A stretch of DNA of 64,000 nucleotides from Calorimonas adulescens (GCF_008274215.1 NZ_VTPS01000001.1:186001-250000), one strand, 5' to 3'; positions 13,406 through 37,955 are shown, counted from the first letter of the stretch. Notes: generated from the sequence alone by a model not told the origin. Numbers and translations: made by a program.

Positions 13406-13426
13406 TTAAATTATAAGCATAGCATC
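13406..13426 (-). pseudogene. queA: Stranded original 3' end of host queA
   Basis: On the minus strand this reads GAT GCT ATG CTT ATA ATT TAA, i.e. DAMLII-stop, the expected QueA C-terminus. The base triplet before it is GGG, completing GDAMLII. The rest of queA lies beyond the prophage at 63,812-64,000, where the reading frame ends GDAMLIV-stop. This is the displaced host half of the attachment site. Confidence 0.85.
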
Positions 13427-13430
13427 CCCC
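13416..13430. other. attL, left prophage junction
   Basis: The plus-strand sequence AGCATAGCATCCCC (13,416-13,429) matches AGCATTGCATCTCC at 63,822-63,835, with GCATC (13,422-13,426) as the longest identical core. A short imperfect core is expected for a large serine integrase. The outer side is host (queA end, PsiE/CorC-like gene); the inner side is phage. In the reconstructed attP, GAGCAT and ATGCTC would flank the core as an inverted repeat. Confidence 0.8.
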
Positions 13431-13482
13431 ATGCTCACGGGAAGCAGGAGGAATGCTCATCATGCACTATCACAAGTAATTA

Positions 13483-13511
13483 ATTATAACAAACATAGCG
13501 GTCTTTTTCAA
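13483..13511 (-). promoter_or_regulatory. Outward-facing phage promoter reading across attL into the tgt operon
   Basis: Minus strand: TTGAAA (13,506-13,511), 17-base spacer, TATAAT (13,483-13,488). It lies inside the prophage left end and no phage gene lies downstream, so it must fire out over attL into the PsiE/CorC-tgt-yajC genes. Confidence 0.7.
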
Positions 13512-13530
13512 CCGCCGAAATTGCCTCTAA

Positions 13531-13597
13531 ACAGCCCCGTTTTCATCATGTGGTATTTATGTATTCAAAGTTTCGTATGACTTTTGCACGGGGCTGT
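13531..13597 (-). terminator. Long inverted repeat at the prophage left end, probable terminator
   Basis: ACAGCCCCGT (13,531-13,540) and ACGGGGCTGT (13,588-13,597) are perfect 10-base arms around a 47-base loop region. It begins 14 bases after the stop of the leftmost phage gene and is followed by TTTAGAGG on the minus strand, so it could end phage transcription before the outward promoter. The long loop is unusual for a simple terminator. Confidence 0.5.
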
Positions 13598-13610
13598 ATT
13601 TTGATAAAAA

Positions 13611-14252
13611 CTATATTTTGTTACCAATCTTATATACCTTATCTTTCCCTTTTCCGGAACCTTTAATGAATGAATCTATCCAAATAACTTTTCCGCTTTT
13701 GTAATGCCGGAAATGCCCTCGGACCGTAAACTGACCGCTTGGAGATTTTCGATATCCGGATGCAGCAAAGTGCCTTTTCCCGCTACTGCTTTTCATGAGA
13801 TAAACTGTGGATGCCGAGCTTCTACTCTTCTTGCTTTGGTTTTTCTGAACATTTTTTCGCAGGCTGTGGACTTCGCTGTTCTCTCGTTCATTCTCTTCCA
13901 GGACTTCCGTCTCAGTTTCTTTGCAGTATGCCATAAAAGCCATTGCTGAACAGTAAACGGTGAGTACAGATTGCTTATCTTCACTGCTCAGGTCCGTTCT
14001 ATCCTTAACCAAATCAAGCAGTCCGTCTGGTCGTATTCTATATTCCATCATTCCAAGACTTAATCCCTTATGACTTACATAGAGCCTTATCTTCGATTCA
14101 TTCCGGAACCCTTTGATAACATAACCGGACTCGGTGCAATCTATCTTACATGCCGGTAAAACCGGAGGATACCGGCGAACAATGTCCTTGTTCTTGTCTC
14201 TCCAGTCAAGGAGAAACTCGGTATCCTTTATGGTTAAAACAATCTTATCCAT
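13611..14252 (-). CDS. Phage protein of unknown function
   Basis: A 213-residue protein. The first half looks globular; a Lys/Ser-rich linker (about 125-150) follows; the last 60 residues contain a basic, aromatic motif (FTVRGHFRHYKSGKVIWID) that recurs in phage proteins of Firmicutes. I do not recognise a function. It is the last gene of the far-left operon, whose promoter carries repressor operators, and it ends at a long hairpin. It could be a nucleic-acid-binding or host-interaction protein; that is a guess from its basic tail. Confidence 0.6.
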   Translation of the reverse strand: MDKIVLTIKDTEFLLDWRDKNKDIVRRYPPVLPACKIDCTESGYVIKGFRNESKIRLYVSHKGLSLGMMEYRIRPDGLLDLVKDRTDLSSEDKQSVLTVYCSAMAFMAYCKETETEVLEENERENSEVHSLRKNVQKNQSKKSRSSASTVYLMKSSSGKRHFAASGYRKSPSGQFTVRGHFRHYKSGKVIWIDSFIKGSGKGKDKVYKIGNKI

Positions 14253-14267
14253 CTTTCATCCTCCTCG

Positions 14268-14417
14268 TTAATTATCAGCCTCCTCTACTCTTATCAGCCA
14301 GTCAGGTCCGAATGCAATCCGGTATTCATTTCTCATGGCTATAGCTTCCTCTAAAGTATCAAATTCATCAATATCCTCCCATGGATGGCCTTTGTATTTG
14401 CCTCTAACTTTATACAT
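14268..14417 (-). CDS. Small phage protein (49 aa)
   Basis: An open frame of 49 residues with an excellent AAGGAGG site nine bases before its ATG. The peptide starts MYKVRGKYKG and is acidic towards the end (DIDEFDTLEEA, VEEADN). It is a short single-domain protein of unknown function. It sits between two genes of the far-left operon with short gaps, which supports real coding. Confidence 0.6.
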   Translation of the reverse strand: MYKVRGKYKGHPWEDIDEFDTLEEAIAMRNEYRIAFGPDWLIRVEEADN

Positions 14418-14434
14418 TTACACTACCTCCTTGA

Positions 14435-14926
14435 TTAACGTATGGCTTGATAGTGTTCTTCAAAGATTTCATCGATGGCATCAGCCGTATCCCCACATAT
14501 GCTCCATTGTGCTTTATCGCCGCCCCACCAGAGCTTCACGGCTCTGTCACTGGTGTCAACTTCGATATGAGGTCCTCCGGTTGCTATTGTCACCGCAACA
14601 CCTCTGTACTCACCATCACCGCCAATATGATATTCGATATCAAGAGCATCTTCAAAGTAGCTGTATAAATCAGTTGCTTCTCCATTATCCAGTTTTTCAC
14701 GGATTGCTTCGAGTTCTTCCTTCATTTCTTGAAGTTCTTCTTGTTCCGCTTCGGTCAACTGGCCATTATCTTTGTCTTCATAATCTGCTATATCTTGTTC
14801 TAACTCTTCGGCTCGTTCTTCCAGCTCATCCCTGCTTTGCGGATTTGCAGATAACTCGTCAAGCTCTTGGGCTATTTTTCTTACCCTTTTCAGGCATTCT
14901 TCTTCGTAAAATCTACTATTACTCAT
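14435..14926 (-). CDS. Phage/ICE-type hypothetical protein with coiled coil and C-terminal GGP-VDT domain
   Basis: A 163-residue acidic protein. Residues 10-90 form a Glu-rich coiled coil; the C-terminal 75 residues hold a conserved pattern (TGGPHIEVDTSD, KLWWGGDKAQW) that I have seen in proteins of Firmicutes conjugative elements and phages without a known role. Small acidic proteins in repressor-controlled phage operons are often anti-defence factors or DNA mimics, which is only a possibility here. A hairpin with arms TGGGCGG/CCGCCCA lies just upstream of its ribosome site. Confidence 0.6.
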   Translation of the reverse strand: MSNSRFYEEECLKRVRKIAQELDELSANPQSRDELEERAEELEQDIADYEDKDNGQLTEAEQEELQEMKEELEAIREKLDNGEATDLYSYFEDALDIEYHIGGDGEYRGVAVTIATGGPHIEVDTSDRAVKLWWGGDKAQWSICGDTADAIDEIFEEHYQAIR

Positions 14927-14977
14927 CTTTCTACTCCTTTCTGGGCGGTTTCGCCGCCGCCCATCGGCTATTCATGT

Positions 14978-15154
14978 TTACTTTCTTTCATCCTCTTCAA
15001 CCTTGATGCCGCAGTACGGGCAATACTTTATAGGAACCAGTTTTCCGTCTATTACCATGTAGGGCATTACATCATGCAGGTTAACTTCCGGCTTTCCGGT
15101 TCCCTGTCTGCAAGTGTGGACCAGGTGCTCATGACCAGGTACTTCTTTCAGCAA
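14978..15154 (-). CDS. Small zinc-ribbon-like protein (58 aa)
   Basis: The frame begins at TTG 15,154, eight bases after GGGGAGG and directly after the stop of the upstream gene. The peptide ends YCPYCGIKVEEDERK, so a CxxC knuckle is present, with HTC near residue 15 as possible second ligands. Such short zinc-ribbon proteins are common in phages as DNA- or protein-binding adaptors. No specific function can be read. Confidence 0.65.
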   Translation of the reverse strand: MLKEVPGHEHLVHTCRQGTGKPEVNLHDVMPYMVIDGKLVPIKYCPYCGIKVEEDERK

Positions 15155-15589
15155 CTATTTCACCTCCCCTGCCATGTAGTCATACAGCTTGGCTTTCAGC
15201 TTCATAACGTCGCACTCAAGGTCTTCAATCATTACTTTGTAGGATTCAGCCTGGTTTTTATATCCTGCGGCTTCTCTCTTTGCTGTCATTAACGCTTCAT
15301 TAAGCTCTTCTATGTTTGTCTTTAACATTGACTCTCTTTTTAAAACTGTTTCATATGCTTCTTTAAGACTACTAAGCTGTTTTGCCATCTCTAATTTTGC
15401 ATCTTCAGCTTTTTGCACTTCATTGATGTAATACCGAGTCGTACAGCCAAAATCGTTTTCAATATTCTGTTCTGCTATCTCAAAGGCTCCGTCGAATGCT
15501 GCTGCCAAGTAGCTATCTGTTCCAAGCTCTGCTACCATCTGTCTGATTTTTTCAAGAGTCTTGCGCTCCATTTCTTTGGTTGCTGTCAT
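15155..15589 (-). CDS. Phage coiled-coil protein, first gene of the far-left operon
   Basis: A 144-residue protein, mostly helical, with a long coiled coil from about residue 55 onwards and no recognised domain. Its ATG follows AGGAGG and a strong promoter whose spacer is a repressor operator, so the whole operon (15,589 down to 13,611) should be silent in the lysogen and switched on at induction. Function unknown. Confidence 0.6.
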   Translation of the reverse strand: MTATKEMERKTLEKIRQMVAELGTDSYLAAAFDGAFEIAEQNIENDFGCTTRYYINEVQKAEDAKLEMAKQLSSLKEAYETVLKRESMLKTNIEELNEALMTAKREAAGYKNQAESYKVMIEDLECDVMKLKAKLYDYMAGEVK

Positions 15590-15603
15590 TTCAACTACCT
15601 CCT

Positions 15604-15621
15604 ACTTACCGTTTGGTAAGT
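15604..15621. promoter_or_regulatory. Repressor operator, between promoter and first gene
   Basis: The 18-base palindrome ACTTACCGTTTGGTAAGT lies between the promoter and the ribosome site of the 15,589 gene. Same motif family as the operators at 15,644, 49,594, 59,927 and 60,182. Confidence 0.75.
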
Positions 15622-15637
15622 TTTAATTCTTGACTTC

Positions 15638-15666
15638 ATTCTAACTTACCAATATGTAAGTGTCAA
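15638..15666 (-). promoter_or_regulatory. Consensus promoter with an operator filling its spacer (15,644-15,661)
   Basis: Minus strand: TTGACA (15,661-15,666), 17-base spacer, TAGAAT (15,638-15,643). The operator ACTTACCAATATGTAAGT occupies the spacer. The CI/Cro promoter at 60,176-60,204 has the same -35, -10 and spacer design, so the same repressor probably shuts both. The stretch 15,667-15,861 holds only AT-rich sequence with loosely repeated AAGCCTTG/AAGCTTCTG motifs and no gene. Confidence 0.8.
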
Positions 15667-15861
15667 TCAAATAATTTATTTTTTATAAAATTTTTTATTA
15701 TCAAGTTTTACATTTATGGCAAAGGAGCAAAAGCCTCTGAGAGCTTCCCAGTTGCTTTATAAGCCTTGATAATGCAAGCCTATAGTTTTATATTCAAAAC
15801 GTCTGAAAGCTTCTGAAAATCGAAAATCCCGTAAGCCTTGTAAATAGTGGATTTTTTGGCA

Positions 15862-15904
15862 AAAAAATAAAGCCCCCTCAAGGATTTTCTCCAAGAGAGG
15901 GCTT
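15862..15904 (-). terminator. Rho-independent terminator after the holin gene
   Basis: Minus-strand hairpin with arms AAGCCCTCTC.. and ..GAGGGGGCTT followed by TATTTTTTT. It starts just after the holin stop codon and probably ends the late (structural and lysis) transcript. Confidence 0.85.
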
Positions 15905-15910
15905 AACTTG

Positions 15911-16300
15911 TTACTTGCTCTTTTGTTCTTTGACGGCCTGTTCAATTTTTGCAGTGAGCCAGGTGTCGAGGTCTCCGTATAACGACTCAAGCAATTCTTT
16001 GGTTTTCTGCGATAACAGTTTAACAGCCATTTCTTTTGCTGTGTTAAACGCTGTCTTTTGTGCTTCTGCATCAAAGGTTCCTGCTTTCTTAAGGCTGTCA
16101 ACATAGGTCTGCGCTGTGTAGGTTACTGCTGTATAAACGGCATCGGCGGCCTCGTAGAGAGCCTGTTGCAGGGTATCGTTGTCTATGGTGGCAATTGCTT
16201 CATTTGTTTTAGTCTTAAAGTATTTCACGAGGAAGGTAACTAAAACCGGTATGGCCGGAATGATTACTACCTGAATTAAAGTCGTAAGTATTTCGTTCAC
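15911..16300 (-). CDS. Phage holin, LL-H type
   Basis: A 129-residue protein with one N-terminal membrane segment (about 5-27) and a long helical cytoplasmic domain with repeated Ala residues. Composition, length and position next to the amidase fit the phage LL-H holin family, which makes the membrane hole that releases the lysin. It is the last gene of the late transcript and has a terminator right after it. Confidence 0.8.
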   Translation of the reverse strand: MNEILTTLIQVVIIPAIPVLVTFLVKYFKTKTNEAIATIDNDTLQQALYEAADAVYTAVTYTAQTYVDSLKKAGTFDAEAQKTAFNTAKEMAVKLLSQKTKELLESLYGDLDTWLTAKIEQAVKEQKSK

Positions 16301-16317
16301 AATTCACTCCTCCTTTT

Positions 16318-17337
16318 TTATACGAGCGAAACATCACTGATGTTCACCCAGCTAACTATTTCTTTGAGCAACACTTTTCCGTCACCGAGTTGCTGCACCG
16401 TATATGTGTTATTTTTTACCCAGTCAGGGATTGCCTGGCCCGTACTATACTTGGCAGCACTGCTTTTAATCTTAACCTTGCTACCGACTGTTATGGATGC
16501 AGAAGCTGATTCTACACTGACCGTTGTTCCTCCCTGGGTGGTAATAAAGGTATCGAAGCCATCAGCCTTAAGCTTTGCAGCCATGTTGTCAGCATTTTCT
16601 TTCTTGGAATATGCTCCTACCTGAACTTTATACAGGTTTCCTACCTGCACAAGCATGGTATCATATCCCTTAGCCTTAATAGCCTCCAGTGTCTTTTCGG
16701 CATTGGCTTTAACCCCGTAGGCACCAACCTGCACCCTGTAAAGAACGGTCCCTGATGCTGAATTGCCTTGATTTCCTGTGGAGGATTCGCTGCCTTTCAA
16801 TGCCGCTATGATAGCATCAAATTGAAATTCGGAGCCTGGGCAATTTGGCTTTGTGACCGGATTTATTTGATAGTGCCCGACAATATGTTCACGGTCAAGC
16901 GGTATTTCAACGCCGTAAATGCGTTTTACCTCGCTTCGGATAAATTTAATCAGTTCAATTGTAGCAGCAAGCTGTGCATCCGTGAGCTTACCCTTTGTCT
17001 TGGCCCATATCCCTTCATGTTCGATGCTCACGGTATAATAATTGGCATTGGTCTTACGCTCTCTAACGGCTGCAAGGGTACTTTTCCCGTAGTACACACT
17101 CGAACTTGCGTCTGTGCTGGTTCCGTTGCACCATGCTCCATCCGTGAGTGGAACAAGCTGTGATACTCTTCCATCCTGAGCGACTACGAAATGAGCCGAT
17201 GCTTGAGCTTGCGGGTTGCAGAGCCAGCTTACTGCGCCTTCATAACTTCCTTCGGTAATGTGGCACACAATCATGTCAGGCTTCCAGCCTTTACGACCAT
17301 CGTATTTGTTTGGTGACGGCCTCTGGGTTATGTTCAT
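16318..17337 (-). CDS. N-acetylmuramoyl-L-alanine amidase endolysin with SPOR repeats
   Basis: The phage lysin, cutting the bond between muramic acid and L-alanine in peptidoglycan. Residues 1-175 are an Amidase_2 domain with zinc ligands in VCHITEG (His26), GHYQINP (His155) and PNCPG (Cys166). Two SPOR-like repeats follow (YRVQVGAYG at 200, YKVQVGAYS about 40 residues later), then a C-terminal SH3-like domain (TVGSKVKIKSSAAKY). SPOR domains bind denuded glycan strands. I start it at ATG 17,337 (GGGGAG six bases upstream) rather than the TTG at 17,355. Confidence 0.92.
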   Translation of the reverse strand: MNITQRPSPNKYDGRKGWKPDMIVCHITEGSYEGAVSWLCNPQAQASAHFVVAQDGRVSQLVPLTDGAWCNGTSTDASSSVYYGKSTLAAVRERKTNANYYTVSIEHEGIWAKTKGKLTDAQLAATIELIKFIRSEVKRIYGVEIPLDREHIVGHYQINPVTKPNCPGSEFQFDAIIAALKGSESSTGNQGNSASGTVLYRVQVGAYGVKANAEKTLEAIKAKGYDTMLVQVGNLYKVQVGAYSKKENADNMAAKLKADGFDTFITTQGGTTVSVESASASITVGSKVKIKSSAAKYSTGQAIPDWVKNNTYTVQQLGDGKVLLKEIVSWVNISDVSLV

Positions 17338-17351
17338 GTCTATCTCCCCTT

Positions 17352-17636
17352 TCAAACTTGACTATTTTGATTTCCGATGTCCTCGTCTGGGATGTATTTA
17401 TCACCGTATAATTTCTTAAGCTTGATTTGGTTTTCCATCTTCGCCTTGTTATAATAAAAACCCGTAGCTGTTGCCATCTCTGCGGCTGCTGCGGGGATTA
17501 AATAACTTAGCGGAGTGAGGTCCATTGTTCTCCATATCATGATGCAAGCGAAAATGAGAACGAATAGGTTTACAATGGACACGCCAATGAATATTTTCTT
17601 TGAAAACTCAGGAGGATTTCTTTTCTTGCCTCGCAT
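17352..17636 (-). CDS. Small phage membrane protein next to the lysis genes
   Basis: A 94-residue protein with two hydrophobic segments (about 15-38 and 43-65), a basic N-terminus and a charged tail. Its position just upstream of the lysin suggests a lysis accessory or second holin, but no family is recognised. I prefer the ATG at 17,636, four to five bases after GGGGGTGA; the open frame starts at GTG 17,654. Confidence 0.65.
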   Translation of the reverse strand: MRGKKRNPPEFSKKIFIGVSIVNLFVLIFACIMIWRTMDLTPLSYLIPAAAAEMATATGFYYNKAKMENQIKLKKLYGDKYIPDEDIGNQNSQV

Positions 17637-17650
17637 ATAATCACCCCCAA

Positions 17651-17974
17651 TCACAGGAAATTGTCAACCCCTTGCTCATTAAGGAAATCTTTCTGTTCAT
17701 GCTTAACAGCTCGTGCATACTCCAGAGCCTTTTCCATCTCTCCGTTGCATTTACTGTCAAGCCGTTTTATGGATTGAGCCGTAGCTTCACCGAGTGCTAT
17801 TGCTGCTCCAACACCTTTGATAAGCAAGAGCTCGTTTTTTTTTCTTGCTTCCTCCTGTTTGTCTCTTTTGGCATCACGCCTTGTAATTGATTTTTGAATT
17901 GCCCAGAAGCACAGTCCTGTAACAGCGGACGGTATCCCCATCAGGGCGAGAAGTGATAAAAAATCAATTGCCAA
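17651..17974 (-). CDS. Small phage membrane-anchored protein
   Basis: The protein begins (M)AIDFLSLLALMGIPSAV, an N-terminal membrane anchor, followed by a basic region and a helical, charged domain (107 residues). I start it at TTG 17,974 because AAGGAG lies eight bases upstream, inside the end of the reverse transcriptase gene; the open frame extends to 18,031. It is common beside phage lysis genes of Clostridia; a role as lysis accessory is an inference from position. Confidence 0.6.
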   Translation of the reverse strand: MAIDFLSLLALMGIPSAVTGLCFWAIQKSITRRDAKRDKQEEARKKNELLLIKGVGAAIALGEATAQSIKRLDSKCNGEMEKALEYARAVKHEQKDFLNEQGVDNFL

Positions 17975-19091
17975 ATGCTTCACTCCTTTCTGCTTTTTGA
18001 TAGATTTCATTGAGCTTTCTTCGTAAACCATAACTATTGCAATGTTGCAGCATCCCTTTGTAAGATGCTGCGCTTCTCATAAACTCTTCTTTCGTCAGTC
18101 TTCCGGATTTTAATTCTTCGCACATGTGCTTAACCTTTCTAATGATGCGCCTCGCCGTTTGTTTCTTGAGCTTACGATGTGTAGCCCATATTTTGTAACC
18201 AACAAAGTCAATTCCAAGTGTAATCGGACGTATAGCTGTCTTACTGTTGAGGTCAAGGTGAAGCTCTTCGTCAAGGAATCTCTGAATCTCGTGCTTAACT
18301 TGATTCAGGAACTTCTTATCATTGGACAATATAATAACATCATCCATGTAACGAATGTAGTAATGGAGCTTCAACTCGTGCTTTGCATATTGGTCAAGCT
18401 CGTTGAGGTATATGTTTGCAAATAACTGGGATGTTAGGTTGCCTATAGGCATACCTACATCCGATAGCCACATATCCTCTGTACATTCTTCCGGATTCAT
18501 TCCGGAGGGAAGACCGAATTTCGTATTCTCGCAGTTTATGACTTTCCAAAGAAGATTGAGAAGCCTTTCATCGGTTATTCGCCGTTTTAGGATTTCAAAC
18601 AAAATTGCGTGGTCAACGCGGTAAAAATATTTGCTTATATCAAGCTTAAGATAATACCATTTCCCCTCCTTTCTGCTTACCTGGCGTAGCCAGTATTGCA
18701 ATCTGTCGGCGGCTTTGTGGGTTCCTTTCCCGATTCTGCATGCATAGCTGTCTTCAATGAACAGTTTGTCGTAAACCGGATTCAAGCATCGATAAATTGC
18801 CCATTGGACCACCCTGTCTTTAAACTGCAATGCCATGACAAGCCGAAGTTTCGGCTCGGTAACATAAAAAGGCCGGTATGGGCCGACTTCGTAAGTTCCC
18901 CACAAAAGCTCGTTCTGAGTGATAATGAGGTTCGACTCAAGGTTTGCTGTATAAGCCAGCACATCATCCCGGTACCTTTTGCCCTTCCGAGCTTCCAGGT
19001 ATGAATTATAGAGGTTTTCGTAATCGCAGATATCATCAAAGACATCTGTAATCATGGTCATTCCTTCACAATTATCTTTGATTTCCTTCAT
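17964..19091 (-). CDS. Diversity-generating retroelement reverse transcriptase
   Basis: The DGR enzyme that copies the template-repeat RNA into cDNA with random bases opposite adenines. The 375-residue protein has motif A (KLDISKYFYRVDH, Asp151), the DGR-type motif MPIGNLTSQ (214-222; other retroelements usually have QG in this region), the catalytic YMDD (248-251) and the thumb region after about 300. Length fits compact DGR RTs, with no extra nuclease or maturase domain. It lies 187 bases downstream of the template repeat in the same orientation, as in known DGRs. ATG with GGAGG four bases upstream. Confidence 0.96.
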   Translation of the reverse strand: MKEIKDNCEGMTMITDVFDDICDYENLYNSYLEARKGKRYRDDVLAYTANLESNLIITQNELLWGTYEVGPYRPFYVTEPKLRLVMALQFKDRVVQWAIYRCLNPVYDKLFIEDSYACRIGKGTHKAADRLQYWLRQVSRKEGKWYYLKLDISKYFYRVDHAILFEILKRRITDERLLNLLWKVINCENTKFGLPSGMNPEECTEDMWLSDVGMPIGNLTSQLFANIYLNELDQYAKHELKLHYYIRYMDDVIILSNDKKFLNQVKHEIQRFLDEELHLDLNSKTAIRPITLGIDFVGYKIWATHRKLKKQTARRIIRKVKHMCEELKSGRLTKEEFMRSAASYKGMLQHCNSYGLRRKLNEIYQKAERSEAFGN

Positions 19092-19278
19092 GCGTCCTCC
19101 TTGTATTTGCGCCGTGCGTGACGTTTCCGCCTCGCTTCAATAATGAGCGTTTTCACGGCAATATAATCTTTTCCCCATGTCGTTCAGAGCAAAGGGAGGG
19201 AAGCAAGCCCCTTTGAGCCTGTACACTGTGCGCATTCCCGTAAGATATACGCCCATTATCGCTCCGATACAGGCGCAG

Positions 19279-19394
19279 AGCGGAGCGGAACCCGATGCTC
19301 GCGCTGACGCCCGAACGCGGATTGCCCAAGCTCGTGCAGAAGACTCCCGCGTTGGACGTGTTGTTCCAGTTGCCACCGCGAATCGGGAACCGCT
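19279..19394 (-). repeat. DGR template repeat (TR), 116 bp
   Basis: This 116-base segment matches the end of the target gene (19,905-20,020) over its full length except at 12 positions. Read on the coding strand, ten of these are A in the TR and another base in the target copy. The TR would encode the same frame with Asn/Ser/Ile codons (AAC, AGC, ATC, ATT) where the target has other residues. It starts 24 bases after the avd stop and lies before the RT gene, the standard position. The 187 bases between TR and RT have no gene and are probably part of the TR RNA needed for priming. Confidence 0.95.
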
Positions 19395-19418
19395 ATAGGC
19401 TTGCTCCCCATAATCGTA

Positions 19419-19820
19419 CTATTTGAGGGATTTCATATATCCTCCAATAATACGACCGATTTCATCAAGCAACCTGCTCCAATACTCATACTTTTTAAAA
19501 GGCAGAGGTGGAGCAAAGTTTTTATCGTAGTAGTCTTTATCCTGTGCTAACCGGATAAAATGTCTTAAAACCTCCAGTTCTATGTCAAGCTCTTGTAACG
19601 TCGTCTTCTTGTAATACTTTTTCTCTACTTCAATAGACAGGCGATACATCCTGAGCATAGATGTCCGGATTTCATCCGCAGTTTGCCGTTCTCTCCTTGG
19701 AAAATGAGCCACTGCTCGTTTCCCGTACTTTATCATGTCGGCTATTTTCTCTTTGAGAACGAATGCTTTCTTATCCGGTTTTTGCTCTGGATTATTCTGA
19801 AATTGATTTATTTCCGTCAA
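19419..19820 (-). CDS. avd: DGR accessory variability determinant (Avd)
   Basis: A 133-residue, basic, all-helical protein typical of Avd, which forms a pentameric four-helix bundle that binds the DGR RT and the TR RNA. It starts at TTG with AAGGAG upstream. The order target gene, avd, template repeat, RT is the same as in the Bordetella phage BPP-1 DGR. Avd is required for mutagenic homing in that system. No other role is evident. Confidence 0.9.
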   Translation of the reverse strand: MTEINQFQNNPEQKPDKKAFVLKEKIADMIKYGKRAVAHFPRRERQTADEIRTSMLRMYRLSIEVEKKYYKKTTLQELDIELEVLRHFIRLAQDKDYYDKNFAPPLPFKKYEYWSRLLDEIGRIIGGYMKSLK

Positions 19821-19848
19821 TTATTCTCCTTTCTTTAGAAATAGTAAA

Positions 19849-19864
19849 GCGGCCTATCGGCCGC
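19849..19864 (-). promoter_or_regulatory. DGR-type hairpin with GATA tetraloop downstream of the variable repeat
   Basis: GCGGCC-GATA-GGCCGC on the coding strand, a perfect 6-bp stem with a loop that fits the GRNA tetraloop rule described for DGR target hairpins. It lies 22 bases after the target stop codon and 40 bases from the end of the VR. No T-run follows, which argues against a simple terminator. Confidence 0.7.
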
Positions 19865-19886
19865 ATTCAGTTTAACAGTATACAGT

Positions 19887-20951
19887 TTACAGTTCTCCAT
19901 AGTAAGCGGAGCGGAACCCGACGCCCGCGCCGACGCCCGAACGCGGATTGCCCAAGCCCGTGCAGCAGACTCCCGCGTAGGACGTGTAGCCCCAGCTGCC
20001 ACCGCGAAAGGGGAACCGCTCTGCTACTCCATTGTTAGCATAAAAGTAATCGTTGCCGTATGTTTCATCAACAACAGCCCCATCAGGGAATAAACCAAGC
20101 TCTTTAAGAATCTGCGGGCATGTAACGCCAGATGCAAGGGTCATATCTTTAAAAAGACAACCTCTTGATGAATCAAGCTGAGAGGTAATTGATGTGCAAA
20201 GAGTCCATTTACTTGAAACATAATCGAGCTTAAGCGTACCGGCTGTACCTGGCGCAACAAGCGAACCATCCTGCAAAATAGCTTTCCAGTGAGTGGAGCT
20301 CTCTCCCATATCAGAAGTCGCATTCATACAGTCAGCATAAGGAATGATTTGAATTTCTCCCATAACCAGCCGCATTCCTGCACACCATTCCCAAACGTTT
20401 CCATTCAGGTCTGCAATGCCATCCGGCAGCCAGTTGTGATTCCATGTTGCCGGTCCCGAACCCGTAGCTGTCCTTCCAGTCTTTCCGGCTCCACTGTCAA
20501 AGTAAGTCTCCACACCTTTTTCATGAGGATACCCATGGTCAGAACCATAGTTGTTATTTCCTCGTGGCATTGTTCCGTTCTTTTTACTCCAAAGAGCAAT
20601 TGCTCCCCACAGAGAAAACGGCATAAGTCCCCAGGAGCTTCCTTTCTGTCTGCATGCTGCAAGTGCAGCATCCCAGGTTATAGAGGTCTTCGGGTCCTGC
20701 ATAGGCAGTGAATACGCTCTGTTGTTTACAATGATGTTTTGATATTTGCTGACTCCTACTTTTGCCTTTTCTGTACTATTCAGTACAAATGCAGGATGCA
20801 CTGTTGATGTAGCACCTGAATATAGTTCAGAAGTTAACATTTTAGGAAGAACAACAAGCACTGAGGGCATCCCAACGTCGTCGAGTTTTACCGTATTTTT
20901 CCCTCCAGAAAGAGATTCAACCGCCAATTTAAAATCATCAAAGTTTGCCAT
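19887..20951 (-). CDS. DGR target: formylglycine-generating-enzyme-like C-type-lectin-fold tail protein
   Basis: A 354-residue protein whose C-terminal half has the FGE/sulfatase-modifying-factor C-type lectin signature: NGNVWEWCAG near residue 190 and, at the very end, RFPFRGGSWGYTS...GVGFRSAYYG. The final 39 codons before SAYYGEL are the variable repeat. In such proteins the variable residues line one binding face. It is the first of the four DGR parts and lies between baseplate genes and avd, so it is probably the tail-tip receptor-binding protein or a decoration of it. ATG with GGAGGTG upstream. Confidence 0.93.
   Translation of the reverse strand: MANFDDFKLAVESLSGGKNTVKLDDVGMPSVLVVLPKMLTSELYSGATSTVHPAFVLNSTEKAKVGVSKYQNIIVNNRAYSLPMQDPKTSITWDAALAACRQKGSSWGLMPFSLWGAIALWSKKNGTMPRGNNNYGSDHGYPHEKGVETYFDSGAGKTGRTATGSGPATWNHNWLPDGIADLNGNVWEWCAGMRLVMGEIQIIPYADCMNATSDMGESSTHWKAILQDGSLVAPGTAGTLKLDYVSSKWTLCTSITSQLDSSRGCLFKDMTLASGVTCPQILKELGLFPDGAVVDETYGNDYFYANNGVAERFPFRGGSWGYTSYAGVCCTGLGNPRSGVGAGVGFRSAYYGEL
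19905..20020 (-). repeat. DGR variable repeat (VR), 116 bp
   Basis: The VR covers codons for FPFRGGSWGYTS to GFRSA at the end of the target gene. Compared with the TR, adenine-derived codon changes are ATT to TTT, AAC to AGC, AAC to GGC (two bases), AAC to TAC twice, AGC to GGC three times and ATC to GTC. Two changes are not at adenines: CCG to CCC and TTC to TGC. The 3' part is GC-rich and nearly free of A, as expected for the initiation-of-homing region. Confidence 0.95.
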
Positions 20952-20954
20952 TCT

Positions 20955-21284
20955 TTACACCTCCAAATCCCATAATGTTAGAGTACATTTATCAATATCA
21001 AAGGGAACCGGTTCAAGTCTCGTAGCAGGTTCTCCTTCTTCCGGATTTTCAACCGGAGTTTCAATATAAGTCCGTGCCGGTATGTCTATTTCAGCCACGT
21101 ATCTGAGTCCCGCTGCCGTACCGCAAACCAGGCATCCCATACTGTCGGCACAGATGTCGATATGATTTGTGTCGTCTCTTTCATACTTTGAAAGATTAAG
21201 CATAATCTCATCTCTGAAACTGATAATATTTCCAGTAACCGAATACTCAATTTTCGGCCCTTCGTTTTTATTAACAACGTTCAT
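20955..21284 (-). CDS. Phage protein upstream of the DGR target
   Basis: A 109-residue protein, apparently beta-rich with an acidic C-terminal half, and no recognised domain. It ends three bases before the DGR target begins and its start overlaps the upstream small gene (ATGA). Its place between the tail genes and the receptor-binding target suggests a tail-fibre accessory or an adaptor that carries the target; that is inferred from context only. Confidence 0.55.
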   Translation of the reverse strand: MNVVNKNEGPKIEYSVTGNIISFRDEIMLNLSKYERDDTNHIDICADSMGCLVCGTAAGLRYVAEIDIPARTYIETPVENPEEGEPATRLEPVPFDIDKCTLTLWDLEV

Positions 21285-21454
21285 CGTCTATTTTCCTCCA
21301 TTCTTCTTAATTCTTTGTAGGCTTCTGCTGTTCTTGCAGCAATGCATTCAACATGCTCACGGTCAGCAGCATTTTTGGGATTTGCTCCGAAAGAGCGAGC
21401 CACGTATGCTTCGGCTTGTTTTCGTTCTTCGGACTTTATGATTATGTTTGCCAT
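21281..21454 (-). CDS. Small phage protein (57 aa)
   Basis: The frame starts MANIIIKSEERKQ and is helical and charged. Its stop overlaps the next start (ATGA), typical of real operon genes. It overlaps the 21,363-21,560 frame by 92 bases in another phase; both have plausible ribosome sites, so I list both. Function unknown. Confidence 0.5.
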   Translation of the reverse strand: MANIIIKSEERKQAEAYVARSFGANPKNAADREHVECIAARTAEAYKELRRMEENRR

Positions 21455-21560
21455 ATTCTTCGTTCACTCCTTTCTCGCAGTTTATACAAATCTGTCTTCC
21501 TTCTGGGATTATTTCACCGCAGCAAACACATCTGTCTGTATCGGTGTAACAGAAAGACAT
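21363..21560 (-). CDS. Small zinc-ribbon phage protein (65 aa)
   Basis: Starts MSFCYTDTDRC with GGGAGG nine bases upstream. Four cysteines in CVCC and CINC spacing (CVCCGEIIPEGRQICINCEK) make a zinc ribbon. The tail is basic and ends in Cys-Cys. Short proteins of this kind are frequent among phage genes of Clostridia; the role is unknown. It overlaps the 57-residue frame at 21,281-21,454. Confidence 0.55.
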   Translation of the reverse strand: MSFCYTDTDRCVCCGEIIPEGRQICINCEKGVNEEYGKHNHKVRRTKTSRSIRGSLFRSKSQKCC

Positions 21561-21562
21561 GA

Positions 21563-22003
21563 TTAAATACCTCCCTGGATATAGCAATTGACTACAACCC
21601 TGGACGCAGCTCCTGTAAATGCTATTTTGAATCCGTTAAGCAGCTTTTCAGTGATTTCTATGCTTCCAACTCCGCCATTTTCATAGCTGACTATTTCCGC
21701 ATAGACAGTATAGTCTTGAGTGTTCCTACTCGTAGCAAGGGATACGGTTTGAATACTGTTGTTGAACGGATATTTCTGTGTATTTGTGAGTTCCACTGTC
21801 TTTTTCTCTCCAGTCAACCCATCCGTCTTGTCTTTGAGAAGTCTCGCCATTCGTATAGCCTCAAGAGCCATCGCATCTCCGGCAAAAACACCTTCTTCAA
21901 TGTTGTTAAACCGGTCCTGGTCTTGAGGAGTCCCCTGTTGAATCACCTGCTGGGTTGCAGGGTCAACAACATGGTTCAACCAAAATGTCCTGCCGTATGC
22001 CAT
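21563..22003 (-). CDS. Tail-fibre-like phage structural protein
   Basis: A 146-residue protein starting MAYGRTFWLNHVVD, with a helix in the middle and a beta-rich C-terminal half. The N-terminus resembles attachment segments of short tail-fibre proteins. It is placed between baseplate genes and the DGR genes. The assignment is from context and weak resemblance only. Confidence 0.5.
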   Translation of the reverse strand: MAYGRTFWLNHVVDPATQQVIQQGTPQDQDRFNNIEEGVFAGDAMALEAIRMARLLKDKTDGLTGEKKTVELTNTQKYPFNNSIQTVSLATSRNTQDYTVYAEIVSYENGGVGSIEITEKLLNGFKIAFTGAASRVVVNCYIQGGI

Positions 22004-22006
22004 TTT

Positions 22007-22312
22007 TTACACCTCCTGTATCGGTAGATTAAATTTAATTAAAATGCTTTGTACTCCTGTTCTTGATATACTCACCTCCTGCTCACCTGCTAATGTTCCT
22101 GCGTCATCATAAATTCTTATGCGTGTCACCGTGTTAGCCACGGCTGGAACGTTAGGAATATTAGCAAGAATGATGATACTGTTTCCGCTGATTTGAGCAC
22201 TGTTTACCTCTGCATCGTACCAGACACCTGAAACCTGATACTGAAATTTTTGAAGAGAGTTGAGCCATCTTTCCCTTTGTTTTGCAAGAAACTCGTTTGT
22301 CCAAAAACCCAT
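22007..22312 (-). CDS. Phage tail/baseplate-associated protein
   Basis: A 101-residue protein (MGFWTNEFLAKQ...) with a short N-terminal helix and a beta-sandwich-like rest. I start it at ATG 22,312, nine bases after GGAGG, not the GTG at 22,321. It lies directly after the gpI-like protein gene, where adaptor or fibre proteins are usual. No family is recognised. Confidence 0.5.
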   Translation of the reverse strand: MGFWTNEFLAKQRERWLNSLQKFQYQVSGVWYDAEVNSAQISGNSIIILANIPNVPAVANTVTRIRIYDDAGTLAGEQEVSISRTGVQSILIKFNLPIQEV

Positions 22313-22326
22313 GTGAATCACCTCCT

Positions 22327-23241
22327 TTATTCACCGCAGTATGCAGTTCCACAATATGTCGGCTGGAAGAAGTATTCTAATACACCTCCGTCAACATCAA
22401 CTTGCTTTTCTATATTTGTGCCAACAGTAGATAAATACGGATAGGTTCCACAAACCTCATCACCACAATTCATTGGCTGATAGAGAAAGTTTTCTATTGC
22501 TCCATCAACATCAATATCCTTTGTGAGAATTACTCCAATTGTAGCGATGTCTGGATAGGTTCCACATTCAGTTGGCTCGTAGATAAAATCTGCTATAGAA
22601 CTGCCAACAGATACGTCTTTTTCAAGGATAGCACCAAGAGTAGCAACGTTCGGATAAGTCCCGCAAAAAATCGTTCCGCAAAACGGAACGTTTGTGATGA
22701 ATGAAGCTATATTCTTTCCAACCTGGACTTCCGCTTTTATTTGGTACATGTATCGTATTCCGACACCACCAGGTTTTATAGCAGGAACTTCACCCAGGAC
22801 AATAGGTTCTCCTCCAGGACCAATCGTCGGCATTGTCAGGATGATGGTTGCAGGTTGAGAAGGTTCTTCTGAGTAATAGATATCATCTACTCCCCAGACA
22901 TTCTTCATGGCCTCCATGATGTCATAGTAGGTTCCATTGGTAACATTTCTGAAAGCCTTATATTTCAGGAACCTCCTGTACCGTTCATCATCAATAACTG
23001 GATAGTAAATTTCTTTTCCTGACAACAAACCTGCTTCTTTACGGCTCAAAACAACTATATCACCTACACCATCTAATTGTTTCCCTACGGCTTTGTCTAA
23101 TGTCCTTTCAGTTCGTAACTGGTTGAACATGTCAAGGACTTCTTGAAGCTGATGATCCAGTGCATTTGCTAAAACTTCTATATTGTGCTTATTTCTGAAC
23201 TGTTCCGGAAAGTCAGCTAAAAGGCTATCAAGGCGTTCCAT
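22327..23241 (-). CDS. gpI-like/DUF2612-type baseplate protein with Cys-containing tandem repeats
   Basis: Residues 1-180 resemble the P2 gpI / DUF2612 baseplate wedge protein (FPEQFRNKHNIEVLANALDH at the start; RYRRFLKYKAFRNVTNGTYYDI in the middle). The last 120 residues are three to four imperfect repeats of about 38 residues built on CGTYP..AT.G..L.K...V...I..F.Y.P..CG. The repeat region has nine cysteines, unusual for a cytoplasmically assembled tail protein; metal binding or disulfides after release are possible. It follows the baseplate J gene with overlap. Confidence 0.8.
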   Translation of the reverse strand: MERLDSLLADFPEQFRNKHNIEVLANALDHQLQEVLDMFNQLRTERTLDKAVGKQLDGVGDIVVLSRKEAGLLSGKEIYYPVIDDERYRRFLKYKAFRNVTNGTYYDIMEAMKNVWGVDDIYYSEEPSQPATIILTMPTIGPGGEPIVLGEVPAIKPGGVGIRYMYQIKAEVQVGKNIASFITNVPFCGTIFCGTYPNVATLGAILEKDVSVGSSIADFIYEPTECGTYPDIATIGVILTKDIDVDGAIENFLYQPMNCGDEVCGTYPYLSTVGTNIEKQVDVDGGVLEYFFQPTYCGTAYCGE

Positions 23242-24685
23242 TCAGGACCACCTCTATTCTGTCTTTGTCTATAACCGCCTTTTGTCTGCTCGTAATATCA
23301 ACGTTTTCCAGGTCGTAAGCCGTTGGTGTTTCTTCCGCATCTGTTGTTGCAAACGCTTGAATTTTAACGTATCCAACGCCACTTACATTGGTATAGATAC
23401 CAGCGTAAAATCTCTGCGTAAAAATGCTTTCTCCTGCTTTCAAGCTTTTTACATCGCTTAGAATTGAGTTTCTCGTAAGCTCTGCGTAATTTGGCGGCAT
23501 CGGCTGTGCGGAATTCATTGTAAGTGTCACTTTAAGCCAAACATAGACATACTGAGGACGGTTAAACCTTATTGTTATGGGTTCTCCGGAAACACCGGTT
23601 ACTATAACCTCCTCTGAACCAAATGTTCCAATTCCCCCTGCCTTTTTTGCAAGAATTTGAGCTGCTATTTCCGTACTGTCTCCGCCATCGACAACTATCT
23701 CAATACTATGTGGCGGCCTTCCTTCTTCGTCCACAGTATCTCCGTCGTTCTCATACCCCTTTGCGCTTTCGACACCTTCTACGTTCTCAAGAATCGCACC
23801 AACGATACTATCGAGCATTGTATTAGACCTGAGAGCGATTTTCTGGATATATGATTGTCTCGCTTCAACATCTGTCTCTGCAAGTCGTCCGTAGACTGCA
23901 TATCCTACGTTTCTACAGCTCCGAAAGCCAATCGGTCCCGTAACTATTTTGTTAATAGAACCTTCTGGCAGAACAAATTTACCGTATTCCTCGCTTAAAA
24001 AGCTTATGAGAGAATAAACGCTCTTCGTTGTCAGATTTTCAGATAATATCAGCGAGCTGCTCCTGAGCTTGTTGGTATCTTCCAGCATTAAAACTCCATT
24101 TTGTACCGTAGCTGTAAAGAGAGGGTCAGTAATGGCTTGTGCTAAACCTTCCAGAATTGAGGATTCTGTCGGGTTTGTTCCACTTGTGTAGGTGTAAATC
24201 GTTCCGTCTATTGCGATGGTATAAGTCGAAGAAGCTTGAACCTGTAATACTCTGATAGAAACTTTGTTAAAAGCCCTACGTGTTATGACTGATGATTCCT
24301 GAGCGCATAGGAAATTGACAACAGGTAAAGTATCAGATGCAATCATACATGTAGTCGGTATAGGTGTTTCATCGTCGCCCTCACAAAGGATAGTATAAGA
24401 TGTCTTAGTTGCCCTGGCTCTTTTTGAACCTCCAAACTGCATTGCATTGTCAAGGTTTATGCCTTCTGCTGTCGATGGATACTGAGAGTAATATACGTCC
24501 TGTCCAACTTCCCACAAAGTCGCAATCTTATCAGCAAAGCTTGTAACGAATACATTTAACAATGATTGAGGATTAACCGTTGGGTCAAATCCCCAGCCTT
24601 CTTTAAGCTCTTCGTATATTTCAGACATAATAGTATCAAGCCTTTTCAATACAAAACCATCTGGAGTGACTCCGTAATCAGGCAT
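23228..24685 (-). CDS. Baseplate J/gp47-like protein
   Basis: A 485-residue homologue of the baseplate wedge protein J (Mu gp47, XkdT family). It begins PDYGVTPDGFVLKRLD, contains the RARATKTSYTIL beta domain and the typical VYGRLAETDVEARQSYIQ...NTMLDSIVGAILENVEGV helix region, and ends in a beta-rich domain. The protein forms the baseplate wedge of contractile tails. It overlaps its neighbours on both sides by a few bases. Confidence 0.9.
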   Translation of the reverse strand: MPDYGVTPDGFVLKRLDTIMSEIYEELKEGWGFDPTVNPQSLLNVFVTSFADKIATLWEVGQDVYYSQYPSTAEGINLDNAMQFGGSKRARATKTSYTILCEGDDETPIPTTCMIASDTLPVVNFLCAQESSVITRRAFNKVSIRVLQVQASSTYTIAIDGTIYTYTSGTNPTESSILEGLAQAITDPLFTATVQNGVLMLEDTNKLRSSSLILSENLTTKSVYSLISFLSEEYGKFVLPEGSINKIVTGPIGFRSCRNVGYAVYGRLAETDVEARQSYIQKIALRSNTMLDSIVGAILENVEGVESAKGYENDGDTVDEEGRPPHSIEIVVDGGDSTEIAAQILAKKAGGIGTFGSEEVIVTGVSGEPITIRFNRPQYVYVWLKVTLTMNSAQPMPPNYAELTRNSILSDVKSLKAGESIFTQRFYAGIYTNVSGVGYVKIQAFATTDAEETPTAYDLENVDITSRQKAVIDKDRIEVVLNGTP

Positions 24686-25031
24686 TAACCGTCACCTCCT
24701 CACTTATATATTCACTGCCTGCTTTTGCCTCAAATGAAATAGTTAAAGTTCTCTCAGCCTTGTTTGCAGTAATAGTAAGCGATGTAACTTCTGTTACCTC
24801 ATCAACGCTGAGTATCTGCTCTCTAATGAGCTGTTCGGTCCGGAAGTCATTTCCTCCTTTTACAAGCACCTCATCAAAGTAAGGGATCCCGAGCTCTTCG
24901 TTAAACTCCCATTCTCCGGCAAACCATTGCAGCCGTATCTTAACTGCTTGGCTTACGCTGTCTGTAATGGAAATATCGCCGCTACTGGATACTGCAAGGT
25001 CTCCTGTAGCATCAAGCAACAAATCTTTCAA
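24678..25031 (-). CDS. Baseplate gpW/gp25-like (DUF2634-type) protein
   Basis: A 117-residue protein with the gp25-like pattern: KIRLQWFAGEWEFNEELGIPYFDEVLVKG, and a C-terminal beta-strand region that ends at the baseplate J overlap. gp25/W forms the inner baseplate disc and starts sheath polymerisation. It starts at TTG (GGAGGGAT upstream). Placement between spike and baseplate J genes is canonical. Confidence 0.85.
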   Translation of the reverse strand: MKDLLLDATGDLAVSSSGDISITDSVSQAVKIRLQWFAGEWEFNEELGIPYFDEVLVKGGNDFRTEQLIREQILSVDEVTEVTSLTITANKAERTLTISFEAKAGSEYISEEVTVNA

Positions 25032-25045
25032 TTATCATCCCTCCT

Positions 25046-25681
25046 TTACTGTGGTGCTGAGGTCTGGCTTCCAGGTTCCGATGATGTATGAGTATGATTC
25101 TTCAATGAGATATTTCCTGCTGTTACATCTCCGGAAAGCACTGAGAGCCCTTGTGAGGCCGTTATTTTTCCTGTGGTAGTTGTTATATTACCCTCCACTG
25201 TTAAATCGCCCCTGATGGCTATTCCGCTTTGAGAAAGGGTTATTTTGCTATCCCCTTTCTTAATCACTATTGCATCATTGTCGATTGCTTCCTTAACCGC
25301 AGCATTTGGCTTTGCAAAAAGCCCTGGTATTGCTACTGCATTGGTAAGGTCATGCCTCAATTCTGCCTGCGTCTCACCGCCGTATCTCCAGTAATCAAGG
25401 GCCTGCTCGCAGATTATAAGCAGACATCCGTCGCCCTCTTTTATCGGGAATGCAATAGTAGCATCCTGTCCGCCTCCCTGTATCAGCACCACTGGAACAC
25501 CGGATATGACCGGATAGTTAAAAACCCTGCCATCCGGAGACCTAAACTGTCCTTTCGGTAGGACAACAGCCGTGCATGTGGCAGAGTCAAAACTTTTAAT
25601 TTCTCCTGGCATCGCAGTATGAACGCCAGAAAGGAATTCTTCAATAGTCCTTCCTATTTGTTCTGTAAATTCTTGCAGCAA
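25046..25681 (-). CDS. Baseplate spike protein (gpV / Gp138-type)
   Basis: The 211-residue protein has an N-terminal OB-fold (MPGEIKSFDSATCTAVVLPKG, VPVVLIQGG), a beta-helix repeat region (GDLTVEGNITTTTGKITASQ) and a C-terminal KNHTHTSSEPG. The HTH motif near the tip is the iron-binding HxH of trimeric spike tips. It is the membrane-piercing needle. The hub gene follows upstream and gp25-like downstream. Confidence 0.88.
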   Translation of the reverse strand: MLQEFTEQIGRTIEEFLSGVHTAMPGEIKSFDSATCTAVVLPKGQFRSPDGRVFNYPVISGVPVVLIQGGGQDATIAFPIKEGDGCLLIICEQALDYWRYGGETQAELRHDLTNAVAIPGLFAKPNAAVKEAIDNDAIVIKKGDSKITLSQSGIAIRGDLTVEGNITTTTGKITASQGLSVLSGDVTAGNISLKNHTHTSSEPGSQTSAPQ

Positions 25682-26563
25682 TTACTTCACCTCCAGCAAT
25701 TCGGCTGTGCAAGTCCATTCGCCTTCGATGTTGTCTCCGTCTATAGTCAGTTTTGAAACTCGGAAATTCCCAGTTGCAATCTTGCTTTCCAATCTCACAT
25801 AATCATTGACGTTGATAGCTGCGTTCATGAAGTATCGTACTTCCCATCCTGTCTGAGCGGTCTGCATTGTATTATTTCTGTTGCCTTCGTTTGGTGTCTG
25901 AGATGCCTTAGTAATTCTTTTAGGTATTCCGATTAATCCTGTTTCTGCACTGAGAAGAAAAGCTCTCGTACTGATAGGTTCATTAGGCATCTTAACTTGC
26001 AGGACCCCGTTCTGCAATGACCATGCAAGCCCGCTCGAAGCACAGGCTTTTTTCAAAGCTCCTTTTGCGGCACCTACATAGCTGAACCCATTTTGAAGGT
26101 CAACAAACTTTGCTTTGGGAGAAAATACGACAGGCACTCCCATTTGTCCGGCAGTATCTTCAATAATTTTCTTGCTGTTGATAACACCGGCATACGAAAC
26201 CGAGATGTAGGTATCACGTAAAGCTACTCGGCTATCCACAGCCTCAATTTCTGTCATAGTGTCCGGACCGTCTTGAGTAGTAACAACATTGGTGATATTC
26301 CCAACAAAAGCAAGGGGCATTATCGTCCCATAGCCTGCCTTAAGCACTACTTCACAGTCCTTGAGATTTAATGTGGCAAGCTGTGCTGGAGATAAGTTCC
26401 AAAGCGTAATCTTTCCTGTGTTTGCACTCTCCAAATCTGACTTCTCTATAGAAAAACTGATATGAAGGGCTGTTTTATGCGGAAAGTCGGTGGAGCCAAC
26501 TTCAAAGCCTGGCCTTCCAGGTACTCCAGCCGAAAACCTATATTGCCTATCAAAGTTATTCAT
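25682..26563 (-). CDS. Tail hub protein (gpD/XkdQ-like)
   Basis: A 293-residue baseplate-hub protein of the phage late-control-D type. It begins with a strand-rich LHISFSIEKSDLESANTGKI segment and contains VDSRVALRDTYIS and the hub linker LAWSLQNGVLQVKMP. These proteins cap the tail tube and hold the spike. Context between the plug and spike genes fits. Exact family name is uncertain. Confidence 0.78.
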   Translation of the reverse strand: MNNFDRQYRFSAGVPGRPGFEVGSTDFPHKTALHISFSIEKSDLESANTGKITLWNLSPAQLATLNLKDCEVVLKAGYGTIMPLAFVGNITNVVTTQDGPDTMTEIEAVDSRVALRDTYISVSYAGVINSKKIIEDTAGQMGVPVVFSPKAKFVDLQNGFSYVGAAKGALKKACASSGLAWSLQNGVLQVKMPNEPISTRAFLLSAETGLIGIPKRITKASQTPNEGNRNNTMQTAQTGWEVRYFMNAAINVNDYVRLESKIATGNFRVSKLTIDGDNIEGEWTCTAELLEVK

Positions 26564-26573
26564 GCTCCACCTC

Positions 26574-26894
26574 CTATTCCTTTAGGTCCTCGTAGGGTAT
26601 AAACACAAAAACGGCCTTCCCGTTAATGAAGTCGTTTCTCCCAACCTTTTCAAGGTCTGTTATTACTCCAAAAACTCCGGAAGGCAGGTCTCTGTTTTCA
26701 TAAAAGAATGTCAGCGGCGAGTTGGGCACAATCTTTGTCATCGCCACGATAGGGGTTTCCTCCAGGTCGTAAATTCCAAAGGACCAGTATCCGAATGTGT
26801 CGTTATAGGTAAACCGGAGCAAATACTCTTTTCCTCCAAGAACAACCCTGGAGAAACTATCATTGAGGTCCGGAGGCGTAATGTATTGCATCAT
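26574..26894 (-). CDS. Baseplate plug protein (Pam3 gp18-like)
   Basis: A 106-residue beta-barrel-like protein. It resembles the cyanophage Pam3 baseplate plug family: GKEYLLRFTYNDTFGYWSFGIYD and a hydrophobic C-terminus. The plug closes the tail tube before infection. Start chosen at ATG 26,894, six bases after AGGGGGTG; the open frame starts at GTG 26,903. Confidence 0.7.
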   Translation of the reverse strand: MMQYITPPDLNDSFSRVVLGGKEYLLRFTYNDTFGYWSFGIYDLEETPIVAMTKIVPNSPLTFFYENRDLPSGVFGVITDLEKVGRNDFINGKAVFVFIPYEDLKE

Positions 26895-26908
26895 CAAAAA
26901 CACCCCCT

Positions 26909-27496
26909 CTAACCAAACAGCTTAGCTGAATCAGCTAAACCATATAGAATCGATGCGGCTTTTTTCGAGTCTTTTTTTTGTTCGGACTTGTTTGTGGAAT
27001 TTGTAGCATTCTTAGAGCTGATTGTCCCTGCATTGGCTCCGGTAGCCCCGCTTTTCCCGTAGGAAGCCTGGATTGCTACCGTTTTGGCTTCCGTAACTCT
27101 TATCTGCTTGAGCTTAATCGGTATCTCGCAGGCGTATCCTGTCTCGGCAGTTTTTGGTATCGTGATGCTGACTATACCCATGTTCTTCCATGTACCTTCA
27201 CTCGTTGTGAAAGTAACCGGTTGCTTATTGAAATACAGCCTTTTCAATTCTTCTGTAACGGCCTTTACACGGTTTCTGTTTTTGCCGAATCTTTTTGCCC
27301 ATGTAACGGGAGTATCGGTAAGGAAGATGGTTAAATCAATCAGCAACGGCTTCAAGATGATTGTATCCTCAACAGAATACCCCTTCTCTGTCGGATATTC
27401 TGGGATGTCTGCTTCATAGGTTGTTGTCTGGTTTATGAGCACATCAAATTCAATCCCATTGATGCTTGCTGGTCTTGTGGCTCTCATCTTCCTCAC
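26909..27496 (-). CDS. Dit-like tail/baseplate protein
   Basis: A 195-residue protein with an N-terminal Dit-like barrel (INGIEFDVLINQTTTYEADIPEYP...SVEDTIILKPLLIDLTIFLTDTPVTW) and a low-complexity Ser/Asn/Ala/Lys tail before a final short helix. The fold forms the ring joining tube and baseplate. Its start overlaps the tape measure stop (ATGA). Confidence 0.75.
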   Translation of the reverse strand: MRKMRATRPASINGIEFDVLINQTTTYEADIPEYPTEKGYSVEDTIILKPLLIDLTIFLTDTPVTWAKRFGKNRNRVKAVTEELKRLYFNKQPVTFTTSEGTWKNMGIVSITIPKTAETGYACEIPIKLKQIRVTEAKTVAIQASYGKSGATGANAGTISSKNATNSTNKSEQKKDSKKAASILYGLADSAKLFG

Positions 27497-29385: not shown

Positions 29386-29388
29386 AGG

Positions 29389-30077: not shown

Positions 30078-30090
30078 CGTTTAACCTCCT

Positions 30091-30510: not shown

Positions 30511-30523
30511 TGTTCACACCTCC

Positions 30524-31615: not shown

Positions 31616-31616
31616 A

Positions 31617-33066: not shown

Positions 33067-33067
33067 G

Positions 33068-33445: not shown

Positions 33446-33458
33446 TTGTCACCCCTCC

Positions 33459-33776: not shown

Positions 33777-33792
33777 GCGTCATTCTCCTTTC

Positions 33793-34827: not shown

Positions 34828-34847
34828 ATTGTTCGTCCTCCTCCTTC

Positions 34848-36942: not shown

Positions 36943-37005
36943 GTCTCAATCTCCTTTCTTCCAAGATTCTCGTTTTGCAAGTCATTTCTTCACACACAGC
37001 ACCTC

Positions 37006-37902: not shown

Positions 37903-37925
37903 TTTGTTACACCTTCCCCAACAAG

Positions 37926-37955
37926 AAAAGTGACCGTTAGTTAACGGTCACTTTT
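37926..37955. terminator. Bidirectional rho-independent terminator
   Basis: Perfect 14-base arms AAAAGTGACCGTTA and TAACGGTCACTTTT around GT. A/T runs on both sides make it work in either direction. It separates the CPCC-like gene from the Mu F-like gene inside the late operon, which is an odd place for a strong terminator. Confidence 0.8.

Follow-up and report, generated by a model that had tools for sequence, protein, structure and literature searches.

Diversity-generating retroelements (DGRs) are known in thousands, and their template repeat (TR) is usually regarded as invariant. The DGR of phage BPP-1 has the order mtd-avd-TR-brt. Its TR-RT spacer recruits the complex of reverse transcriptase (RT) and Avd and primes cDNA synthesis (PMC12875486), the efficiency of homing depends on a hairpin past the variable repeat (VR) (PMC3240598), and its target protein Mtd carries extra trimerising domains (PMC6328139). 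In the Faecalibacterium phage FP_Lagaffe and in Dulem virus 37, the order is tail genes-target-avd-TR-RT-lysis genes, and hypervariation of the VR has been described for the Lagaffe group (PMC11792537). A further DGR, of a Thermus aquaticus prophage, encodes TaqVP, a DGR variable protein with a C-type-lectin fold of the FGE subtype (5VF4; PMC6328139).

Here we analyzed a DGR in a stretch of 64,000 nucleotides of Calorimonas adulescens DNA, hereafter called the window, and compared it with these systems. With BPP-1 it shares the gene order, the RT class (35% identity) and Avd, and also adenine mutagenesis, a hairpin past the VR, and the TR-RT spacer. Three differences from BPP-1 were found: the target is unlike Mtd with its extra domains, the TR is poor in adenines, and VR and TR agree at their 3'-ends as far as the homology extends, so that there is no IMH/IMH* difference within the repeat. 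FP_Lagaffe and Dulem virus 37 have the same overall arrangement as the window, with RTs that are 50-61% and targets that are 45-47% identical to those of the window; however, Lagaffe contains two VRs, and the window one. The Thermus target is homologous over its full length, including the VR, whereas phage and host differ. Three uncultured contigs, L033 and L037 (Lachnospiraceae MAG, IMG/VR) as well as L039, contain the same cassette with 70-71% identical RTs, but their TRs have kept at least ten AAY codons, in contrast to five in the window. As a system, the window DGR is a canonical, textbook and therefore ordinary member, one more clean example in an exactly bordered prophage, and its adenine-poor template is the part worth follow-up.

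Organization of the cassette and its prophage

The cassette extends from 17964 to 20951 on the minus strand and comprises target, avd, TR, spacer and RT. The order target-avd-TR-RT, which had been proposed in a preliminary description of the window, was confirmed, and every element was found at the coordinates given, all on the minus strand. All ORFs of the cassette are intact, and the spacer RNA and the hairpin are both present. A genome-wide search for further RTs of the same kind, TRs or VRs yielded none beyond the one RT, one TR and one VR described here. We are confident that the cassette is a complete DGR with a single target and that it belongs to a temperate phage with a contractile tail.

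The target gene (19887..20951, minus strand) encodes a variable protein of 354 aa with a C-type-lectin/FGE-like fold. It matched phrog_2889 (3.4e-128) and, over its full length including the VR, PDB 5vf4 (7.8e-62), and this homology to the solved TaqVP bears out the lectin fold assigned to it earlier. The avd gene (19419..19820, minus strand) encodes an accessory variability determinant of 133 aa. The protein, previously described as basic, helical and Avd-like, scored above the curated cut-offs of both Pfam bAvd (PF22296, 9.5e-25) and NCBIfam DivGenRetAVD (NF033474, 5.4e-26), and it matched phrog_3206 (1e-28). Homology and gene position suggest that the target is a receptor-binding protein, probably located at the tail tip, and it is conceivable that this phage could switch host-receptor binding, and thus its tropism.

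In G001, a relative from the same family, the insertion site is unoccupied, and the borders of the prophage were derived from this genome. There, the two host flanks lie about 3 bases apart, and they correspond to window sequences ending at 13412 on the left and starting at 63805 on the right. Because the flanks abut in this relative, the prophage body was assigned to 13413..63804 (about 50.4 kb). Upstream of the cassette and on the same strand are the genes for portal, terminase, head protease and major head protein, as well as those for the tail sheath (30524..31615, minus strand; phrog_205, 1.9e-84), tape measure, hub and baseplate, among them a J-like baseplate wedge (23228..24685, minus strand; phrog_6, 8.6e-38). 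Endolysin and holin genes follow downstream of the cassette, and a large serine integrase is encoded at 61884..63746 on the plus strand (phrog_95, 6.2e-130). The structural genes appear intact. Sheath, tape measure and baseplate genes, the integrase, and the insertion into a host locus with exact borders together substantiate the earlier proposal of a contractile-tailed prophage. The prophage also contains a tRNA-Lys (CTT) gene (45668-45743, minus strand), and its portal protein (1004 aa; 38367-41381, minus strand) has a C-terminal extension with a NUDIX-like and a weak ADP-ribosyltransferase-like match.

The reverse transcriptase

The RT gene (17964..19091, minus strand) encodes a protein of 375 aa, and its translation contains both the DGR-specific motif GMPIGNLTSQ, of which MPIGNLTSQ had been noticed before, and YMDD. 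The RT matched the phage RT family phrog_1423 (7e-147). Its best solved relative was PDB 8ub7 (1.2e-56), which we take to be the BPP-1 RT complex, and group II intron RTs followed at 2.9e-22. A maximum-likelihood tree was calculated from 47 RTs, with no bona fide retron RT among them. In this tree, the window RT grouped with those of BPP-1, Lagaffe, BalMu-1, VP58.5, ANMV-1 and other DGRs, with the viral contig L039 as its nearest neighbour (98/91), and 12 group II-type RTs together with one other RT formed a separate group (98/99). The phylogenetic check called for in the preliminary description thus assigned the RT to the DGR clade, together with BPP-1 and separate from group II RTs, retrons being absent from the tree. 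For retron RTs, the sole matching model gave 50 bits, below its cut-off of 235, and a search for RNA families near the cassette gave no match at all, and hence none to a retron msr-msd. That the RT belongs to a retron, a group II intron or a defence system and lies next to a merely coincidental repeat has practically no probability, since weak profile matches to group II RTs (139.5 bits, below the cut-off of 300) and to DRT RTs are opposed by the RT tree, the DGR-specific motif, the adjoining avd gene and the adenine-biased repeat.

A further RT, of 344 aa and from a same-order genome (L006; G005:C3:301313-302290), contains YMDD and PIGNYLSQ, and it branches with the RT of the crAss-like phage cr55.

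Spacer RNA and hairpin past the VR

The TR and the RT gene are separated by a spacer of 187 nt (19092..19278, minus strand) with a conserved RNA structure. Conserved motifs were found in seven relatives. In the consensus structure, 19 of 40 pairs had at least one compensatory change, a count for which the structure had been predicted on the same alignment. The window spacer folded better than 200 shuffled sequences (single-sequence z of -2.55). By analogy with BPP-1, the spacer RNA is expected to recruit RT-Avd and to prime cDNA synthesis.

A scan for GRNA loops identified a GC-rich inverted repeat, GCGGCC-GATA-GGCCGC, at 19849..19864 (minus strand), 40 nt past the VR. It is a candidate target-recognition hairpin or cruciform with a 6-bp stem and a GATA (GRNA) loop. 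The hairpins reported for phage DGRs have GC-rich stems of 7-10 bp and GRNA loops and are located 4-34 nt past the VR (PMC3240598), and the window hairpin thus lies slightly outside the published ranges in stem length and distance. Of the 48 repeat pairs scanned, 19 had a GRNA-loop hairpin past the VR, compared with 0.01 expected, and none had one past the TR.

The repeat pair and mutagenic homing

The TR (19279..19394) and the VR (19905..20020), both of 116 bp and on the minus strand, are 90% identical and represent the sole direct repeat of at least 30 bp within 16500-22500. Coordinates and repeat search agreed with the earlier claim that the VR is located within the last codons of the lectin-fold gene. 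The two copies differ at 12 of 116 sites. Ten of these sites are adenines in the TR, in which adenines occupy 19 of the 116 positions (hypergeometric p=6.4e-8 for the mismatch bias). From TR to VR, seven changes are A>G, three are A>T, and one each is G>C and T>G. The latter two, at repeat positions 11 and 55, had not been given in the preliminary description, and they point to limited drift after the most recent homing or to occasional errors of the RT. We also considered a programmed change at position 55, an idea that was abandoned, as TTC is kept there in the TRs and VRs of the relatives.

Two repeats of 116 bp would also be expected from the duplication of a segment, the copies of which then diverged by drift or recombination without mutagenic reverse transcription. 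However, 10 of 12 mismatches fall on adenines of just one copy (p=6e-8), and the same asymmetry was observed in dozens of relatives, in which 602 of 628 pooled TR-to-VR changes were at adenines and 26 were not, a figure that leans upward because the pairs had been chosen for at least 60% adenine mismatches. Relatives with shared ancestry, moreover, do not represent independent tests. A simple duplication is nevertheless very improbable.

By analogy with the BPP-1 model, RT-Avd would bind the spacer of the TR transcript, and the RT would then copy the TR into cDNA, making errors at adenines. This cDNA would take the place of the VR in the last part of the lectin-fold gene, so that an exposed binding face of the protein would be altered. 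The only other copy of the window locus that was found (IMG/VR 2887281495, L036) shows 100% identity over 11.5 kb and probably represents the same genome, and exact-pattern scans detected no independent strains with the window TR/VR. Homing was assessed in relatives with identical TRs, in line with the alignment of related prophages that had been recommended at the outset. In two such pairs, RT and spacer have identities of 97.7-99.5%. For L033 and L037 (97.7%), 16 of 17 VR differences were at TR adenines, and for L061 and L062, 19 of 21. The VRs of close relatives with the same TR thus vary almost exclusively at TR adenines, and active mutagenic homing is well supported for these relatives.

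The template repeat of the window is depleted of adenines

The preliminary description had not noticed that the window TR is unusually poor in adenines. Among 48 repeat pairs, it has the fewest adenines (19, compared with 20-37 in the others) and the fewest AAY codons (5, compared with 7-12). Its theoretical repertoire of 10^10.1 protein variants is the smallest of the 48, those of the others ranging from 10^11.3 to 10^19.4.

Canonical adenines were defined with an alignment of 33 TR codons. At ten of these codons, 80% or more of the relatives have AAY, which gives 20 canonical adenines. The window TR has lost 7 of these 20. All seven losses are A>G, and all are located in codons 16-27, i.e. 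in the 3' half. Losses were tallied with a profile search, so that altered TRs were also captured. In 41 of 45 TRs, zero to three canonical adenines were lost, and exactly seven were lost in four, namely in the window, L068, L091 and L107. Compared with L039, its nearest relative by RT, the window TR has 21 differences in the core, 12 of which are adenines in L039 and two of which are adenines in the window.

The window VR has G at all seven lost sites, and it has no adenine wherever the TR lacks one. Because of this agreement, either the TR had already changed when the VR was written, or the TR segment was derived from an earlier VR; in the former case, homing would have occurred at least once since the change in the TR. 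The 3' half of the TR would then once have been changed at adenines and later been copied into the VR, and the window copy would now diversify mainly the 5' half of its VR.

It might be argued that the DGR is decaying, i.e. that the cassette was homing formerly and that diversification by it, or by the prophage, has since largely or entirely ceased. The lowest adenine content among the 48 pairs and the two VR changes at non-adenines would fit this explanation. On the other hand, the ORFs are intact, the spacer RNA and the hairpin are retained, the phage structural genes look intact, and the VR contains ten changes at the remaining adenines and otherwise matches the altered TR. We thus regard decay as unlikely.

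Adenine loss in the templates of relatives

The TRs of this DGR family may themselves undergo adenine mutagenesis. In a limited literature search, no report of natural TR mutagenesis was found; in one survey, 7 DGR clusters are noted to have less than 75% adenine mismatches (PMC8144416). We compared the TRs of near-identical relatives. The viral contigs L091 and L092, which derive from the samples IMG 3300006213 and 3300035325, share 99.3% identity over 4.48 kb, and 11 differences were counted outside of the repeats. Their TRs (L091:3515-3613 and L092:7831-7929) differ at seven sites, all seven of which are adenines in L092 (Fisher p=1e-5). L055 and L060, which both have IMG genome-type identifiers and are 99.1% identical in RT and spacer, have two TR differences, both of which are adenines in one of the two. 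For L177 and L178, three TR differences were found, with no adenine on either side. A further contig, L171, has an RT identical to that of L091, and it ends before the TR. In the three other TRs with seven losses, L068 (7541-7639), L091 and L107 (1114-1212), A>G losses are accompanied by A>C or A>T, and the respective VRs retain some of the adenines that the TR has lost. Plain overwriting by the current VR is therefore not the explanation for these TRs.

In the metagenomic cases, chimeric assembly of a TR with VR variants could mimic TR mutagenesis, and when the altered TRs of L068, L091 and L107 were used in exact-pattern scans, no independent copies were retrieved from other contigs. For the window, a chimera is less likely because it stems from a genome assembly of 54 contigs that is 98.7% complete.

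An alternative is that TR adenines were lost by ordinary point mutation and that the changes were fixed because selection favoured particular small residues, namely Gly, Ser and Ala, at the binding face. The window itself fits this explanation well, as 7 of 7 losses are A>G, compared with 55% A>G (328/601) among the VR changes of the relatives, and a purely A>G set has a p of about 0.01 under the usual spectrum of the RT. It accounts less readily for the A>C and A>T losses in the other three TRs, and for L091 and L092, in which 7 of 7 TR differences are at adenines in contigs that are otherwise 99.3% identical. Point mutation followed by selection is a plausible explanation that falls only a little short of an even chance.

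The other reading is that the TR is not a fixed master, and that mutagenised cDNA or VR sequence is occasionally written back into it, preferentially into the 3' part. The window TR would be one product of such an event and would since have been re-copied into the VR. We put this forward tentatively, as a possibility that we would not call probable. Just as tentatively, write-back into the TR would burn adenines and thereby narrow the later repertoire. If TRs do wear at their adenines, DGR diversity would be a consumable stock under selection and not a permanent property. The near-identical phage pairs L091/L092 and L055/L060 make template wear directly testable from reads.

Additional arrangements of repeats were observed in other relatives. 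L067 contains several additional VR-like repeat copies between the target gene and the RT (7740-8253). In L088 (6657-7074), a TR-like start is located at about 6657, and near the RT only the last two thirds of the TR core are found (7008-7074), so that an insertion of about 0.3 kb seems to split this TR. The prophage DGR of Gemmiger sp. An50 (L035, L048 and L083) has two VRs, the second lying upstream of the first at a distance of about 4.6 kb.
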